DNA of 64,000 nt from contig CAKTRT010000002.1 in assembly GCA_934597535.1 (NCBI GenBank), forward strand, positions 1-64,000. Direction: 5' to 3'. A program made the translations under genes and the position numbers. The stretch is from an uncultured Oscillospiraceae bacterium (GTDB lineage Bacteria; Bacillota; Clostridia; Oscillospirales; Oscillospiraceae). Below the pieces are notes generated by a model. That model was not told the DNA's origin, searched no databases, and saw nothing but the letters and a program-made list of their open reading frames with translations. Positions 1 to 29,396 of this stretch are shown here, piece by piece (within the stretch, counting starts at the first letter, position 1; the number at the start of each line of letters is the position of its first letter).

Positions 1-708
1 CGTGCGGCGGCGGCCGAGGTCGTACTCGTCCGCGCCGACGATGTCGCGCTTCATCCGGACGCAGACCTCGATGACGTACTCGTACTGCTCGCGCACGGGC
101 GTTCTGCAAAGCTTTTCGAAGAACGCGGCGTTGCCGAGCATCGAATACTTGATGATCTCAGCGCAGCCGCAGCGGTACTGCTCCTCGGGCAGCGTTTCGA
201 GCGTGTCGGGGTCACAGATCACAATACAGGGCTGGTAGAAGCTGCCTGCCTGATTTTTGCCCGTGGGCAGATCGACGGCTGTCTTGCCGCCGACGGACGA
301 ATCCACCGCGGCCAGCAGCGTCGTCGGGATCTGGGCAAAGCCCATACCGCGCTGATACGTCGCCGCGGCAAAGCCTGCAAGGTCGCCCACCACGCCGCCG
401 CCGAGCGCAACGACCACGTCGCTGCGGCTGAAGCGGTGCTCGCCGAGAAAGTGCAGCACATCGGCATAGGTCGAGAGATTCTTGCTCCCCTCGCCCGCGG
501 GGAATGTGAAGGAGCAAACGCGCCAGCCCGCCTTTTCAAGCGCCTTGACCGTGCGCTCGCCGTAGAACGCGTAGACCGTGTCGTCCGACACGACGGCGGC
601 CATGCCAGGGGCGCTGACCTGACCCAGCAGCTCACCCGCGCGGGCAAGCAGTCCTCGCTCGACCAGCACATCGTATTCGCGCGAGGCTGTGATATGGATG
701 CTGCGCAT
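1..708 (-). CDS. aroB: 3-dehydroquinate synthase, 3'-truncated by window edge
   Basis: Second step of the shikimate pathway (DAHP to 3-dehydroquinate, NAD and metal dependent, cytosolic). Reading the minus strand from the ATG at 708 gives an uninterrupted frame starting MRSIHITASREYDVLVERG. The family's glycine-rich stretch GGGVVGDLAGFAAATYQRG follows near residue 100, then the TTLLAAVDSSVGGKT segment that binds substrate and NAD. About 236 of the usual ~350 residues are inside the window and the C-terminal metal-binding half is cut off. The start codon overlaps the tyrA stop codon (TGATG), so it is translationally coupled to tyrA and is the third gene of the attenuated aro operon. Confidence 0.93.
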   Translation of the reverse strand, partial: MRSIHITASREYDVLVERGLLARAGELLGQVSAPGMAAVVSDDTVYAFYGERTVKALEKAGWRVCSFTFPAGEGSKNLSTYADVLHFLGEHRFSRSDVVVALGGGVVGDLAGFAAATYQRGMGFAQIPTTLLAAVDSSVGGKTAVDLPTGKNQAGSFYQPCIVICDPDTLETLPEEQYRCGCAEIIKYSMLGNAAFFEKLCRTPVREQYEYVIEVCVRMKRDIVGADEYDLGRRRT

Positions 709-1538
709 CAGCCGTCCACCTCTTCCTTTCTTCTCTTGCCTTCATCCAGAAGACGGATAAGGGTCTCTTCGTCGCCGTTTTCCATGGCGGTCTTGTATTC
801 GCTCAGATGCTCGATGTAGCAGTCGATCTCCTTGAGCAGGAAGTCTCTATTTTCCAGAAACAGCTCCGCCCACATGTGCGGCGCGAGCCAGGCAACGCGC
901 GTCATGTCCTTATAGCTGCCGGCGGAAAAGCCCTTGTGCTTTTTTGCTGTGGGACTTTTGATGTAGGCGTTGGACGCCACATGCGCCAGCTGCGAGGTGA
1001 AGGCGATCATCTCATCGTGCTGCTCGGCGGTCGTGACGGAGTAGCTGCCAAAGCCTGTGGGAGAAAGCAGCGCCTTCACACGGCCAAGCAGTTCGATATC
1101 ATCGAAGCGCGGGGGTACGAGCACCATCGGCGCGCCCGCAAAGAGGTCTGCCTTGGCATACTTGAAGCCGGAAAACTGCGTGCCTGCCATCGGATGCCCG
1201 CCGAGGTAGGTGACGCCGTACTGCTCCGCGATGGGAAAGCAGGCCGCACACACGATGCGCTTTGTACCGCAGCAGTCGATCACAACGGTATGGGGATCGA
1301 TCTTTGCTGCATTCTTCCGGAACCAATCGACCGCCGCCGCGGGGCATACAGCCAGCAGGATCAGGTCGCACTGTCCCAGCGTTTCATCCGCGAGTTCTTC
1401 GTCTACCGCGCCGCTGATGACGGCGAAGGCCAGCACGCTGCGGTCGGAATCGAAAGCGAGGACCCTCTCCCCTGCTTCGTGGTAAGCTTTGGCGAACGAG
1501 CCGCCGATCAGGCCGAGTCCAACGATCCCAACGGTCAT
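708..1538 (-). CDS. tyrA: prephenate dehydrogenase
   Basis: NAD(P)-dependent oxidative decarboxylation of prephenate to 4-hydroxyphenylpyruvate, the committed step to tyrosine. The 276-aa protein begins with a Rossmann fold (VGIVGLGLIGGS at residues 3-14). It has the family's GGHPMAGTQFSG segment near the middle (about residues 153-164) and a helical C-terminal half. No ACT or chorismate-mutase domain is fused, so feedback control must lie elsewhere. It overlaps aroF upstream (ATGA) and aroB downstream (TGATG), indicating one transcript. Its presence fits the Tyr codons in the operon leader peptide. Confidence 0.93.
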   Translation of the reverse strand: MTVGIVGLGLIGGSFAKAYHEAGERVLAFDSDRSVLAFAVISGAVDEELADETLGQCDLILLAVCPAAAVDWFRKNAAKIDPHTVVIDCCGTKRIVCAACFPIAEQYGVTYLGGHPMAGTQFSGFKYAKADLFAGAPMVLVPPRFDDIELLGRVKALLSPTGFGSYSVTTAEQHDEMIAFTSQLAHVASNAYIKSPTAKKHKGFSAGSYKDMTRVAWLAPHMWAELFLENRDFLLKEIDCYIEHLSEYKTAMENGDEETLIRLLDEGKRRKEEVDG

Positions 1539-2539
1539 TGCGCTACCGCCTCTCTCACGCGGCCGACGGCCTTGGCAAGCTCATCGTACTGCTCGGGACG
1601 CAGGGATTGCGCGCCGTCGCACAGCGCATGAATGGGGTCGTTGTGCACCTCGATGATGAGGCCGTCAGAGCCGCAGGCGGCAGCAGCCAGCGCCATCGGG
1701 CGCACGAGGCGCGCAATGCCGGTGGCGTGGCTGGGATCGACAATAACAGGCAGGTGCGTCAGCTCCTTGAGCATCGGCACGGCGGCAAGGTCGAGCGTGT
1801 TCCTTGTGTAATCGTCGTAGGTGCGGATACCGCGTTCGCAGAGGATGACCTGCTCGTTGCCGCCGGCCATGATATACTCTGCGCTCATCAAAAGCTCTTT
1901 GAGGGTGCTGGCGAGGCCGCGCTTTAAGAGAATGGGCTTGCGGAGCTTGCCCAGCTCGCGCAGCAGGTCGAAGTTCTGCATATTGCGCGCGCCGACCTGA
2001 ATGACGTCCACATCCTCAAAAAGCGGCAGATAGCTCGTACCCATGATCTCGGTGACGATGGGAAGGCCGGTCTCCTGACGGGCGATCTTTAAAAGCTCGA
2101 TGCCTTCGGCCTTGAGCCCCTGAAAATCATAAGGCGAGGTGCGAGGCTTGAACGCGCCGCCGCGCAGCATATTCGCTCCCGAGGCCTTCACGGCCTTGGC
2201 TACCGCGACGATCTGCTCTTCGGATTCGACCGAGCACGGGCCGGCGATCATGCAGAAGTTGCCGCCGCCGACTTTTACGTCCCCGATCTCAACGACCATA
2301 TCGTCGGGATGGAACTTGCGGTTACAGCACTTGAATGGCTCGGTCACGCGCTTGACGGAGTCAACGATATCGAGCGAGCCGATGAGATCCATATCGATGC
2401 GCCCCGTGTCGCCGATCAGGCCGAGCACGGTCTGGTAATCACCCTCGGAAATATGGACGCCAAGACCCTGATTTTTCAACCACGAAATGAGCTGCTCGCG
2501 CTTGTCCGTCCCGACACCGCGCTTAAGTACGACGATCAT
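1535..2539 (-). CDS. aroF: 3-deoxy-7-phosphoheptulonate (DAHP) synthase
   Basis: First enzyme of the shikimate pathway, condensing phosphoenolpyruvate and erythrose 4-phosphate. The 334-aa protein has an N-terminal ferredoxin-like/ACT-type domain (about residues 1-70). A KDSA-type TIM barrel follows, with the motifs [28 protein letters not shown] and [10 protein letters not shown]. This is the short beta type made by many Firmicutes and Thermotoga. A strong ribosome binding site (AAGGAGG) precedes the ATG at 2539. It is the first structural gene after the attenuator at 2577-2723, so the pathway's entry enzyme is the main target of that control. The symbol aroF is used generically and could equally be aroA or aroG by other naming schemes. 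Confidence 0.95.
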
Positions 2540-2576
2540 GATAAAATCCTCCTTATCGACGATTCAATATGCGAAA

Positions 2577-2613
2577 GAAAAAATGCGGCACAGGCCGTAA
2601 GGCTGTGCCGCAT
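2577..2613 (-). terminator. attenuator terminator (3:4 hairpin) of the aro operon
   Basis: On the minus strand the 5' arm (2613-2601) and 3' arm (2596-2583) pair through ATGCGGCACAG and CTGTGCCGCAT, extended by GCC/GGC pairing with one bulged base. The stem is followed by T6 (2583-2578) and then CTTT. The hairpin lies between the leader peptide stop codon and aroF. Its 5' arm contains CAGCCTTAC (2605-2597), exactly complementary to GTAAGGCTG at the end of the leader reading frame (2670-2662). It therefore can be disrupted by an antiterminator pairing. Confidence 0.85.
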
Positions 2614-2669
2614 CGTACGATCTCCCTTCAGAGCGCTTTCCCGTGTTTCTGCATCACAAATCAGCCTTA

Positions 2670-2723
2670 CTATGAGTTCACAGTAAAGTAAAAATAGTAT
2701 GCAAAAACGAAAATGCTCTTCAT
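2670..2723 (-). CDS. Phe/Tyr-rich leader peptide controlling the aro operon
   Basis: A 17-residue reading frame, MKSIFVFAYYFYFTVNS, with a ribosome binding site (GGGAG) about 10 bases upstream and ending in TAG. Seven of nine consecutive residues in FVFAYYFYF are Phe or Tyr, the end products of the pathway encoded downstream. The frame sits about 40 bases after a consensus promoter. The stop codon touches the antiterminator strand GTAAGGCTG (2670-2662). A competing 1:2 pairing (minus strand 2688-2682 with 2671-2665, seven base pairs including one G-T) completes the usual 1:2, 2:3, 3:4 attenuator geometry. Stalling at Phe or Tyr codons should favour read-through; efficient translation should favour the terminator. 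Confidence 0.85.
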   Translation of the reverse strand: MKSIFVFAYYFYFTVNS

Positions 2724-2762
2724 ACCGGTCGCTTCTCCCGTTTGTGGAACTTTGTTGCACCA

Positions 2763-2791
2763 AGTATAAAAGCAGAGGGCTGAAATGTCAA
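2763..2791 (-). promoter_or_regulatory. sigma-A promoter of the aro operon
   Basis: On the minus strand TTGACA (2791-2786), a 17-base spacer and TATACT (2768-2763). Predicted transcription starts near 2756, about 33 bases before the leader-peptide ATG. Confidence 0.85.
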
Positions 2792-3043: not shown

Positions 3044-5242
3044 ATGAGAGTTATCAAGAGGAACGGCGCGGAAGTCGAGTTCGATATCATCAAGATCATC
3101 TCTGCGGTCACCAAGGCGAACGACGCCACCGAGGAGGACGCGCGCATGACGCCTGTTCAGATCCAGCGCATTGCTGAGAGCGTGGAGCTTGCGTGCCAGA
3201 GCCTTGGCCGCGCGCCTACAGTCGAGGAGATCCAGGACTTTGTTGAGCACCAGATCATGGCGCACGGTGCGTTCGAGGTCGCCAAGCGCTATATTACCTA
3301 CCGCTATACCCGCTCGCTCGTGCGCCGCAGCAACACGACAGACGACAAGATCCTCACACTGATCGAGTGCAACAATGAAGAGGCCAAGCAGGAAAACTCC
3401 AACAAAAACCCCGTCGTCAACTCCACGCAGCGTGACTACATGGCCGGCGAGGTCAGCCGCGACCTGACGAACCGCATCCTCCTGCCCGAGGATATCGTCA
3501 AGGCGCATGAGGAGGGCATCATCCACTTCCATGACACGGATTACTACGCCCAGCACATGCATAACTGCGACCTTGTGAACTTAGAGGACATGCTGCAAAA
3601 CGGCACGGTCATCACAGGAACGCTTATCGAGCGCCCGCATTCGTTCGCGACCGCGTGCAACATCGCGACGCAGATCGTCGCGCAGGTCGCCTCGAACCAG
3701 TATGGCGGGCAGAGCATTTCTCTTACCCATCTTGCTCCCTTTGTGGATGTTTCCCGCAGGAAGCTGCGCAAGACGGTGGAGGAAGAGATGGAGCTTGCCG
3801 GTGTGGAAATTTCGCAGGAAAAGATCGGCGAGATCACGGAAAAGCGTCTGCGCGAGGAGATTCGCCGCGGTGTGCAGACGATCCAGTATCAGGTCGTGAC
3901 GCTGCTGACGACCAATGGCCAAGCTCCGTTCATCACGGTGTTCATGTACCTCAACGAGGCGAGGAGCGAGCAGGAGAAGAAAGATCTTGCCCTTATCGTC
4001 GAGGAGATGCTGCTCCAGCGCTACGAGGGTGTGAAGAACGAGCAGGGCGTGTGGGTCACGCCCGCTTTCCCGAAGCTCATCTACGTGCTCGAAGAGGACA
4101 ACATCCACGACGATTCCCCCTATTACTATCTGACGCGCCTTGCCGCCAAGTGCACGGCGCGCCGCATGGTGCCCGACTATATCAGCGAGAAGAAGATGCT
4201 CGAGCTCAAGGGCGACGTGTACCCATGCATGGGCTGCCGCAGCTTCCTGACGCCTGACCGCTTCACCGACGCGGGCGTCGGCAACATCGCAAACGCCGGC
4301 AATTACGAGCCGGGAAAGCATAAGTATTACGGCCGCTTCAATCAGGGCGTCGTCACCATCAACCTGCCCGATGTAGCGCTCTCCTCCGGCGGCAACATTG
4401 AAAGATTCTGGACGATCTTCGAAGAGCGCCTTGAGCTCTGCCACCGCGCGCTGCGCTGCCGCCACGACCGCTTGAAGGGCACGCTCTCCGACGCCGCGCC
4501 TATCCTCTGGCAGTACGGCGCGTGCGCAAGGCTCAAAAAGGGCGAGCCGATCGACCGCCTGCTCTACGATGGTTACTCCACGATCTCGCTCGGCTATGCA
4601 GGACTTTACGAGTGCGTGAAGTACATGACCGGCAAGAGCCATACCGACCCCAGCGCCACACCGTTCGCCCTGTCGATCATGCAGAAGATGAACGACAAGT
4701 GCAAGGAATGGAAGACTGCCGAGAACATTGATTATTCCCTCTATGGCACGCCGCTCGAGTCCACGACCTACAAGTTTGCCAAGTGCCTGCAAAAGCGTTT
4801 TGGCGTGATCGAAGGCGTGACGGACAAGGGCTATATCACCAACTCTTACCATGTACACGTTACCGAGCAGATCGATGCGTTCACCAAGCTCAAGTTTGAG
4901 GCACAGTTCCAGCACCTCTCCCCCGGCGGCGCGATCAGCTATGTTGAGGTGCCGAATATGCAGCAGAACCTCGAGGCGGTTTTGCAGGTGATGAAGTTCA
5001 TCTATGAGAACATCATCTATGCCGAGCTGAATACAAAGAGCGACTATTGTCAGGTCTGCGGCTGGGATGGCGAGATCGAGATCGTTGAGGACGGCGGCAA
5101 GCTCATCTGGCGCTGCCCCAAGTGCGGCAACACCGATCAGGACAAGATGAACGTCGCCCGCCGTACCTGCGGCTATATCGGCACGCAGTTCTGGAACCAG
5201 GGCCGCACGCAGGAGATCAAGGAGCGCGTGCTGCATCTGTAA
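3044..5242 (+). CDS. nrdD: anaerobic (class III) ribonucleoside-triphosphate reductase
   Basis: Reduces ribonucleotides to deoxyribonucleotides with a glycyl radical, without oxygen. The 732-aa protein has an N-terminal ATP-cone allosteric domain (about residues 1-90), the long catalytic barrel, and a C-terminal zinc site C669/C672/C691/C694 (CQVC...CPKC). The glycyl-radical loop is RRTCGYIG with G710 as the likely radical residue. The ATG at 3044 follows the purine-rich GGGAGAG. The activating enzyme gene nrdG, often next to nrdD, is absent here; the gene is followed by its own terminator. Strictly oxygen-sensitive chemistry supports an obligate anaerobe. Confidence 0.96.
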   Translation: MRVIKRNGAEVEFDIIKIISAVTKANDATEEDARMTPVQIQRIAESVELACQSLGRAPTVEEIQDFVEHQIMAHGAFEVAKRYITYRYTRSLVRRSNTTDDKILTLIECNNEEAKQENSNKNPVVNSTQRDYMAGEVSRDLTNRILLPEDIVKAHEEGIIHFHDTDYYAQHMHNCDLVNLEDMLQNGTVITGTLIERPHSFATACNIATQIVAQVASNQYGGQSISLTHLAPFVDVSRRKLRKTVEEEMELAGVEISQEKIGEITEKRLREEIRRGVQTIQYQVVTLLTTNGQAPFITVFMYLNEARSEQEKKDLALIVEEMLLQRYEGVKNEQGVWVTPAFPKLIYVLEEDNIHDDSPYYYLTRLAAKCTARRMVPDYISEKKMLELKGDVYPCMGCRSFLTPDRFTDAGVGNIANAGNYEPGKHKYYGRFNQGVVTINLPDVALSSGGNIERFWTIFEERLELCHRALRCRHDRLKGTLSDAAPILWQYGACARLKKGEPIDRLLYDGYSTISLGYAGLYECVKYMTGKSHTDPSATPFALSIMQKMNDKCKEWKTAENIDYSLYGTPLESTTYKFAKCLQKRFGVIEGVTDKGYITNSYHVHVTEQIDAFTKLKFEAQFQHLSPGGAISYVEVPNMQQNLEAVLQVMKFIYENIIYAELNTKSDYCQVCGWDGEIEIVEDGGKLIWRCPKCGNTDQDKMNVARRTCGYIGTQFWNQGRTQEIKERVLHL

Positions 5243-29298: not shown

Positions 29299-29396
29299 GG
29301 GGGTGGATGAGCGCTGGTGTGCTCCCCGGTCTTCAAAACCGGCTGTGGGAGGTCAGAAGCCTCCCGGATGGGTTCGATTCCCATGCACTCCCGCCA
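29299..29396 (+). tRNA. selC: tRNA-Sec (anticodon UCA)
   Basis: 98 bases including encoded CCA. Acceptor 5' strand GGGGGTGG pairs with GCACTCCC (one G-T, last pair mismatched). There is an enlarged six-pair D stem GAGCGC/GTGCTC, anticodon stem CCGGT/ACCGG with loop CTTCAAA (anticodon TCA at 29333-29335), a long variable stem GGGAGG/CCTCCC, T arm ATGGG-TTCGATT-CCCAT, and discriminator G. It lies 24 bases after selB, so selA, selB and selC form one locus. Confidence 0.95.

Follow-up and report, generated by a model that had tools for sequence, protein, structure and literature searches.

The DNA upstream of an aroF-tyrA-aroB operon in an uncultured Oscillospiraceae bacterium is best interpreted as a leader-peptide transcription attenuator that is one member of a homologous clostridial family whose control codons have been exchanged, a reading to which we assign a probability of about 0.9. 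The element lies on the minus strand of the window, by which we mean the whole stretch of 64,000 nt that was analysed (GCA_934597535.1, CAKTRT010000002.1, positions 1–64,000). Leader-peptide attenuation is generally taught as a proteobacterial device, and the Firmicutes are presented as users of T-boxes. The parts of the element, their pairings, the conservation and covariation of these pairings and the match between leader codons and downstream genes can all be read from the sequences, and the features of the window copy are as follows.

2786..2791, minus strand: -35 box TTGACA, read from the sequence.
2763..2768, minus strand: -10 box TATACT, read from the sequence, with a 17-nt spacer to the -35 box.
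2735..2739, minus strand: likely leader ribosome-binding site GGGAG, inferred from the sequence, 11 nt 5' of the ATG, a rather long distance.
2670..2723, minus strand: leader open reading frame MKSIFVFAYYFYFTVNS, 17 codons, with ATG at 2723-2721 and the stop codon TAG at 2672-2670.
2679..2702, minus strand: strand 1, codons 8-15 (Ala-Tyr-Tyr-Phe-Tyr-Phe-Thr-Val), pairing with strand 2 (fold, synonymous-codon test and pair counts).
About 2651..2674, minus strand: strand 2, containing GTAAGGCTG (2670-2662) and TTTGTGATGC (2660-2651) and overlapping the stop codon (folds and alignments).
2597..2605, minus strand: strand 3, CAGCCTTAC, which pairs with strand 2 as antiterminator and lies within the 5' arm and loop of the terminator (sequence, duplex test and fold).
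2578..2613, minus strand: intrinsic terminator, a hairpin at about 2613-2583 with six U (T at 2583-2578; fold, and covariation in relatives).
2547..2553, minus strand: aroF ribosome-binding site AAGGAGG, read from the sequence.
1535..2539, minus strand: gene 1, DAHP synthase (aroF), NF006421/PRK08673 and TIGR01361, above the cut-offs.
708..1538, minus strand: gene 2, a tyrA-like prephenate dehydrogenase that scores under the curated cut-offs.
1..708, minus strand: gene 3, 3-dehydroquinate synthase (aroB), TIGR01357, 235.5 of 305 bits, truncated by the window edge.

A first-pass annotation had described a Phe/Tyr leader-peptide attenuator at this site, and the observation proved correct to the base. 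The promoter (TTGACA, 17 nt, TATACT), the 17-codon Phe/Tyr peptide and the T-run terminator lie where it had placed them, and the perfect nine-base complementarity of GTAAGGCTG with CAGCCTTAC was confirmed, as was an upstream alternative pairing of CTTTACT (2688-2682) with AGTAAGG (2671-2665), which includes one G-U. Profile matches also identify the downstream genes as the DAHP synthase operon that had been proposed. Strand 2 is present, but it is longer than had been claimed, extending over about 2674-2651 to include TTTGTGATGC, which in our alignments is the conserved core of the attenuator family. The leader peptide contains four Phe and three Tyr residues, with codons 5, 7 and 9-13 as the control codons, seven of them within 10 codons, and 38 nt separate the end of the terminator from the operon. 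The divergent neighbour of the attenuator is nrdD (anaerobic ribonucleotide reductase; 3044-5242, plus strand).

The region 2570-2765 has a predicted folding energy of -71.2 kcal/mol, compared with -49.2 kcal/mol (sd 4.15) for 200 dinucleotide shuffles, none of which folded as well (z -5.3). The 1:2, 2:3 and 3:4 pairings, of which the last is the terminator, are mutually exclusive in the window copy. In separate folds, the 1:2 hairpin has an energy of -17.8 kcal/mol, the terminator region (2577-2640) of -29.1 kcal/mol and the 2:3 antiterminator, folded as if strand 1 were occupied and the terminator's 3' arm still to be transcribed, of -22.0 kcal/mol. When strand 2 is free and the whole terminator has been made (2577-2672), the best predicted fold is the terminator and not the antiterminator (-33.8 kcal/mol), and therefore antitermination in the window copy must win by timing. 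The antiterminator duplex was equalled in 1 of 100 shuffles (z -2.5), and 4 of 200 synonymous-codon versions of the leader folded as well in the 1:2 hairpin (z -2.5). The layout is that of an attenuator, with a short open reading frame carrying codons for the amino acids of the regulated pathway, its codons 8-15 in strand 1 and its stop codon in strand 2. No T-box (RF00230) was detected in the window at the gathering score or at 2500-2900 at E <= 10, in agreement with the first-pass annotation. Similarly, Rfam 15 contains no family matching the leader site at the gathering score, and its sole match in the window is a selenocysteine tRNA gene elsewhere (29299-29392, plus strand; RF01852, 71.9 bits). 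At E <= 10, six matches were obtained around the site, all far below the cut-offs, the best of these being a cyanobacterial tmRNA on the opposite strand (E 0.0083, 17.4 of 70 bits).

By the proposed mechanism, a ribosome would follow the RNA polymerase while translating the 17-codon leader. With ample charged tRNA-Phe and tRNA-Tyr it would reach the stop codon, and because this codon lies within strand 2, a ribosome positioned there would cover that strand; the 3:4 terminator would then form and transcription would end near 2578. If either tRNA were scarce, the ribosome would stall on the Phe/Tyr codons (5-13) and cover strand 1, upon which strands 2 and 3 would pair, the terminator would not be made in time and aroF-tyrA-aroB would be transcribed. 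When no translation takes place, the 1:2 hairpin would form and the terminator would be the default. We infer that stalling and termination both depend upon charged tRNA. Across the family, the control codons would differ from copy to copy against an almost invariant strand 2 and terminator, giving each operon an amino-acid address of its own.

Relatives of the window copy were taken from named GTDB genomes as the best 80 of 593 DAHP synthase loci (64–82% identity). The labels of these best 80 of 593 are mostly Clostridia, Oscillospiraceae, Lachnospiraceae or Ruminococcaceae, and the genomes compared include metagenome bins. The 350 nt upstream were usable for 79 of the 80 loci, L038 being dropped as its contig begins 57 nt upstream. 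Conservation of the peptide, which the first-pass reading had led one to expect, was observed: an open reading frame with at least five Phe or Tyr per 10 codons precedes 73 of the 79 genes, compared with 8/79 for the reverse complement, 112/1580 for dinucleotide shuffles and 13/1305 for other tiles. At seven or more per 10 codons, the corresponding numbers are 54/79 for the loci versus 0, 2 and 0. The loci below five are L007, L011, L021, L026, L033 and L045. By a second criterion, viz. at least four Phe, Tyr or Trp in 10 codons followed by a terminator-like hairpin and a U tract, a leader with hairpin was found in 76 of the 80 upstream regions (75 of the 79 relatives and the window), those of L005 and L035 having poor hairpins only (-5.7 and -2.4 kcal/mol); no leader was found by this criterion in 4 of the 79 loci (L011, L026, L033 and L045). 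Both Phe and Tyr are present in the best stretch of 75 of the 76 leaders, and L065 has Tyr only. Trp codons also occur in three of the 76 (L003, L007 and L070, the last from the cultured Sporobacter termitidis DSM 10068), as well as in L111, and judging from these codons, certain copies may sense Phe, Tyr and Trp alike; the DAHP synthase leader at L007:1657-1811 reads KIWYWYYF. A clostridial-type DAHP synthase with a Phe/Tyr leader was also observed in a bin labelled Treponema (L017) and in two labelled Lentisphaerae (L054 and L057), which reflects either transfer or misbinning. The T-boxes that the first-pass annotation had regarded as the more usual device of Firmicutes are indeed found elsewhere, with 5–14 matches in each of 17 related genomes tested and one over the cut-off in 16 of the 17; therefore, T-boxes and leader attenuators coexist in these relatives.

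The pairings were examined in the same leaders and, as the attenuator interpretation requires, are conserved as well, which supports that interpretation. A duplex between the region preceding the terminator and the 5' arm of the terminator was equalled in at most 5 of 100 shuffles in 37 of the 76 loci, the window included, and fell below this level in the other 39, with no convincing antiterminator in L005, L014, L023, L055 and L077 (at least 50 of 100 shuffles as good). In some loci, L009 and L074 among them, the initial duplex predictions settled on implausible partners, and therefore partner swaps and pair counts were relied upon as well. Native partners paired better in the mean than swapped ones (mean residual -3.21 over 76 loci, with 0 of 10000 permutations as low when kinship is ignored), although the own partner was within the best 5% against foreign ones in only 17 or 18 of the 76 loci. 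In an alignment (A1) of 24 of the 76 leaders, picked for a recognisable strand 2, 87.3% of the cells were paired for 2:3, 91.3% for 3:4 and 78.5% for 1:2, and for all three pairings neither the percentage paired nor the covariation score was as high in any of 500 shuffles. For 3:4, 9 of 12 pairs have changed on both sides (4/500 shuffles gave as many). The numbers of such pairs for 2:3 (3 of 11) and 1:2 (6 of 19) are within the range of the shuffles (143/500 and 161/500, respectively), but the cells with changes on both sides do exceed them for these two pairings (4/500 each). When the partners were slid out of register, at most 54.0% of the cells were paired for 2:3 and 3:4 and at most 58.4% for 1:2; slid by +2 columns, 1:2 has 9 pairs and 21 cells changed on both sides versus 6 and 20 in the real register. 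The synonymous-codon test was applied to the 53 of the 76 leaders in which a script located strand 2, with 200 versions of each, and codon choice favours the 1:2 hairpin (z<0 in 51/53, and within the best 5% of the 200 in 28/53). The perfect 9-bp pairing of GTAAGGCTG with CAGCCTTAC is a register particular to the window copy; in many relatives, letters resembling TAATTTGTG pair with letters resembling CACAGRTTA, and the window register is shifted from this one by a few bases.

The involvement of strand 1 in pairing allows a narrower interpretation, possible though in our view doubtful, in which the leader senses Phe only and the Tyr codons are needed for strand 1 to pair with strand 2 (UAC/UAU with GUAA), so that the same attenuator would have a single input. 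In most of the 24 aligned leaders, UAC of strand 1 indeed lies opposite GUA of strand 2 (U-A in 22, A-U in 21 and C-G in 20), and the AroR leader of Corynebacterium glutamicum aroF, which contains Phe-Tyr-Phe, is reported to respond to limitation for Phe and not for Tyr (PMC11802643). However, the control stretches contain Tyr as often as Phe (0.366 vs 0.338), the leader of L065 has Tyr only, and DAHP synthase supplies both of these amino acids. Additionally, the Leu, Ile and Trp copies described below retain the 1:2 hairpin with different codons. We favour a leader that reads both amino acids, with Tyr as a probable effective signal.

The training set of a covariance model (R1) consisted solely of 24 DAHP synthase leaders; the E-values of this model are rough and given per genome. 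The window copy scores 93.2 bits, but it is a member of the training set, and at E 0.01 the model regains only 30 of the 56 non-training DAHP synthase loci. Matches were obtained in 18/98 genomes from the order of G002 (E 0.01), 1/146 from the order of G001 (E 0.001; the other 145 were empty under strict filters), 16/41 from the family of G002, 14/24 from the genus of G001 and, in a class-wide scan, 14/245 genomes (E 1e-4). These groups overlap, as G001, G002 and others recur in them, and strict filters were used for those with more than 40 genomes.

The 72 distinct R1 matches from the first four groups were classed by their downstream gene and leader. The DAHP synthase class has Phe/Tyr leaders in 35 of 35 cases, three of which are training sequences (L081, L102 and L106). 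A gene for a fusion of a TIM-barrel with an acyl-CoA ligase (PF01261 and PF00501) is preceded by a Leu leader in 9/9 cases (e.g. MKRLNLANLLLLLLFTSKSE), whereas the leaders of an acyl-CoA ligase gene accompanied by a cupin and a weak HTH match are Ile leaders in 9/9 cases (e.g. MNQSSFAIIIGIIISFIIPQE). In front of TrpB2 (NF009057; three of the five genes scanned), Trp codons were found by reading in 5/5 leaders (e.g. MNASNHVAFIWWRFTVSNGKVDL), four of which are also rich in Phe/Tyr. The prephenate dehydratase class comprises three Phe/Tyr-rich and two Leu leaders. Single R1 copies precede a TrpX-like ABC transporter (PF04392, below the TrpX cut-off; L149 and L150 are further Phe/Tyr copies), aroB (leader YWRRFGF) and a PaaK-like gene truncated at the contig end (L113, minus strand, Phe/Tyr-rich leader); a second PaaK-like gene, 75% identical, also has a Phe/Tyr-rich leader, MFLSVLFVFICLYFYFFAFLFCKSKSVLCCG (L214:115-272). 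The codons of these two leaders suggest that Phe is synthesized from phenylacetate by phenylacetate-CoA ligase-like enzymes in these clostridia. A sodium:solute symporter (SSF, PF00474) follows the leader CYYYSY (L120:1501-1657) and is a candidate tyrosine transporter. The automatic residue test missed Trp in L088 and L121, which were assigned by eye, and scored L120 as alanine-rich despite its CYYYSY. No assignable gene was found for 5 of the 72 matches; one of them (L187) has a Leu leader at a contig end, and the others (L097, L098, L100 and L101; E 0.002–0.008), with neither leader nor fitting gene, look like chance matches. Among 13 newly examined loci of the class-wide scan, 12 are DAHP synthase genes with Phe/Tyr leaders, and L210 (E 7e-6), again with neither leader nor fitting gene, looks like another chance match.

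Phe/Tyr, Leu and Ile copies are present side by side in 8 of the 24 genomes from the genus of G001 (G001, G540, G542, G543, G545, G547, G548 and G556). In G542 and G545, a Leu copy is located in front of prephenate dehydratase and the TIM-barrel/acyl-CoA ligase. Prephenate dehydratase is the first gene of the Leu-led ligase operon in L196:757-4526 and L197:4738-8459 (both minus strand; PF00800 was seen in the L196 copy), an apparent instance of an aromatic gene under a Leu address.

These results bear upon the possibility that the leader is a riboswitch or is bound by a protein, the short open reading frame being incidental or encoding a small protein. A trpB motif with terminator and antiterminator has been proposed as a riboswitch candidate, the available part of the report allowing for a classic attenuator too (PMC11109978). 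However, the residue repeated in the peptide tracks the class of the target gene and changes along with it, and apart from strand 2 and the terminator the alignments show nothing that resembles a conserved aptamer core. Further, at the gathering score no Rfam family matched the window leader or the leaders of 12 scanned loci that represent several specificities; the only match in those 12 was an FMN riboswitch elsewhere in L002. We see hardly any chance that this explanation is correct, and attenuation by a translated leader peptide remains the preferred reading.

The copies of different specificity share one skeleton. In an alignment (A3) of 29 of 35 segments with Phe/Tyr, Leu, Ile and Trp leaders (L112 and five near-duplicates were omitted), the sequence of strand 2 is GTAAGGTYRRTTTGTGATGC, with little deviation, in all four specificities, and the core of the terminator, GCGG..CAG...C...CCGC, is constant. 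Paired cells amount to 93.1% for 2:3 and 91.7% for 3:4 (0/500 shuffles as high), and 14 and 23 cells, respectively, have changed on both sides (0/500 shuffles each); the numbers of pairs changed on both sides are within the shuffles (180/500 for 2:3 and 275/500 for 3:4). In the predicted folds of L180 and L184 (Leu), L104 (Ile), L088 (Trp) and L170 (Phe/Tyr), the control codons form part of a 1:2 hairpin, and a long 2:3 pairing appears once strand 1 is covered. By reading, most Ile copies have ATAAGG for GTAAGG at the start of strand 2 and CTTTAT for CTTTAC in strand 1, which is a matching change. The synonymous-codon test for 1:2 gave a weak bias in the Leu copies (best 5% in 2/10, z>0 in two).

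A second model (R2) describes strand 2 plus the terminator; L103, L104, L086, L088, L091, L095 and L121 were among its training sequences (A2). R2 matched in 23/26 chosen genomes, 3/40 from the family of G001 and 14/295 from the order of G002, and no match was found in G302–G304, which hold L021, L013 and L014. Fifteen R2 loci comprise eight DAHP synthases, two TrpX-like transporters, one chorismate mutase-prephenate dehydratase (L155, leader MFNATYWFYFYFYSLKK.., E 0.008) and four chance matches (L151-L154). Nine further loci comprise seven DAHP synthases, a chance match (L160) and L165 (L165:1501-1587, G401:C16), in which a short leader, MTRNNVFGTGNYYCKE, precedes no recognisable amino-acid gene.

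The chance matches obtained with R1 (L097, L098, L100, L101 and L210) and the additional ones with R2 (L151-L154 and L160) are what one would expect if the likeness of the Phe/Tyr, Leu, Ile and Trp leaders were due to convergence on a common terminator sequence and not to membership of one family, and they indicate that terminators alone therefore carry part of the score. However, beyond the terminator, GTAAGGTYRRTTTGTGATGC is almost letter-identical in the copies of all four specificities. Moreover, when a match to R1 is used as the mark of family membership, Leu, Ile and Trp copies outside the training set are recovered, those with Leu reaching E 3e-14 and 1e-12. Convergence is thus very unlikely, and we infer the common descent of these copies.

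The exchange of specificity may in part have its basis in the reading frame. The repeat (UAU)n can be read as UAU (Tyr), AUU (Ile) or UUA (Leu), and the frames of (UUUUAC)n give Phe-Tyr, Phe-Thr or Leu-Leu. By eye, the ten letters TATTATTACT form a Tyr run in L167-L170, and the same letters, read one base out of frame, specify Leu in L184, L186 and L188. This suggests that specificity can change by a frame shift on a strand 1 that is kept constant by pairing. In Leu copies of the L180 type only the 3' part is in another frame, and therefore the reading-frame idea stays a suggestion. As the same skeleton occurs with other codons before other genes, the window element looks like a member of a codon-addressed family. 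We consider it probable that this family is a leader-peptide counterpart of the T-box, in which changes of the peptide alone have directed one RNA chassis to Phe/Tyr, Trp, Leu or Ile, and a change of frame may account for part of this.

Several related systems are known. The best experimental parallel is AroR, which is reported to ignore Tyr; by its description it likewise combines a Phe/Tyr leader peptide and ribosome-mediated attenuation with an operon containing DAHP synthase, but its host is an actinobacterium (PMC11802643). The candidate motif uORFC-13-1, found before aroF in Acholeplasma and environmental DNA, also has aroF as target and carries a uORF with one or more Phe codons, putative promoter boxes and a terminator; its 24 representatives are exclusively associated with aroF, and it is set apart from the clostridial family, by description only, in that the part of the paper at hand describes no other specificity (PMC8632094). 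Two uORF candidates with Phe and Tyr codons at shikimate genes are similar as well, again by description only, in what is available of that source (PMC6429828). The trpB motif SRC-39-1 occurs in Firmicutes and Fusobacteria, upstream of trpB and of an amino-acid ABC transporter, and has a terminator and antiterminator; unlike the window element, it was proposed as a riboswitch candidate, and, compared by the description in the accessible text, it may overlap the TrpB2 and TrpX-type copies and offer a glimpse of the shared skeleton (PMC11109978). Leader-peptide attenuators are also described in Firmicutes for His; they concern histidine only, and no skeleton common to other amino acids is described in the available portions of these reports (PMC9413887; PMC2965389). 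Published work already describes Phe/Tyr leaders before aroF as well as leader peptides in Firmicutes, and the mechanism of the single window element is therefore of a known type. The enterobacterial trp and pheA attenuators resemble the window element in their alternative pairings and in having the control codons at strand 1. To our knowledge, the enterobacterial attenuators that serve different amino acids cannot be recognised as copies of a single RNA. Those of trp, pheA and pheST are also mentioned in the paper that describes AroR (PMC11802643). In the open-access literature searched, we found no description of a single attenuator skeleton that serves several specificities in Clostridia.

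Among the relatives of the window, clostridia that keep several T-boxes thus appear also to run peptide attenuators resembling copies of one RNA. If this is true, the leader codons would provide a direct read-out of the product or cargo of uncharacterised clostridial enzymes and transporters, e.g. acyl-CoA ligases (Leu or Ile), PaaK (Phe), a sodium symporter (Tyr) and TrpX-like transporters (Phe/Tyr). In rumen bacteria, reductive carboxylation yields amino acids from isovalerate, 2-methylbutyrate and phenylacetate, and the Leu- or Ile-led acyl-CoA ligases and the Phe-led PaaK would, by analogy, fit this route. Such a read-out would be useful for studies of rumen and gut metabolism and is open to test. 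The family would also represent a natural experiment, in which the specificity of a regulator changes and its mechanism is left untouched.
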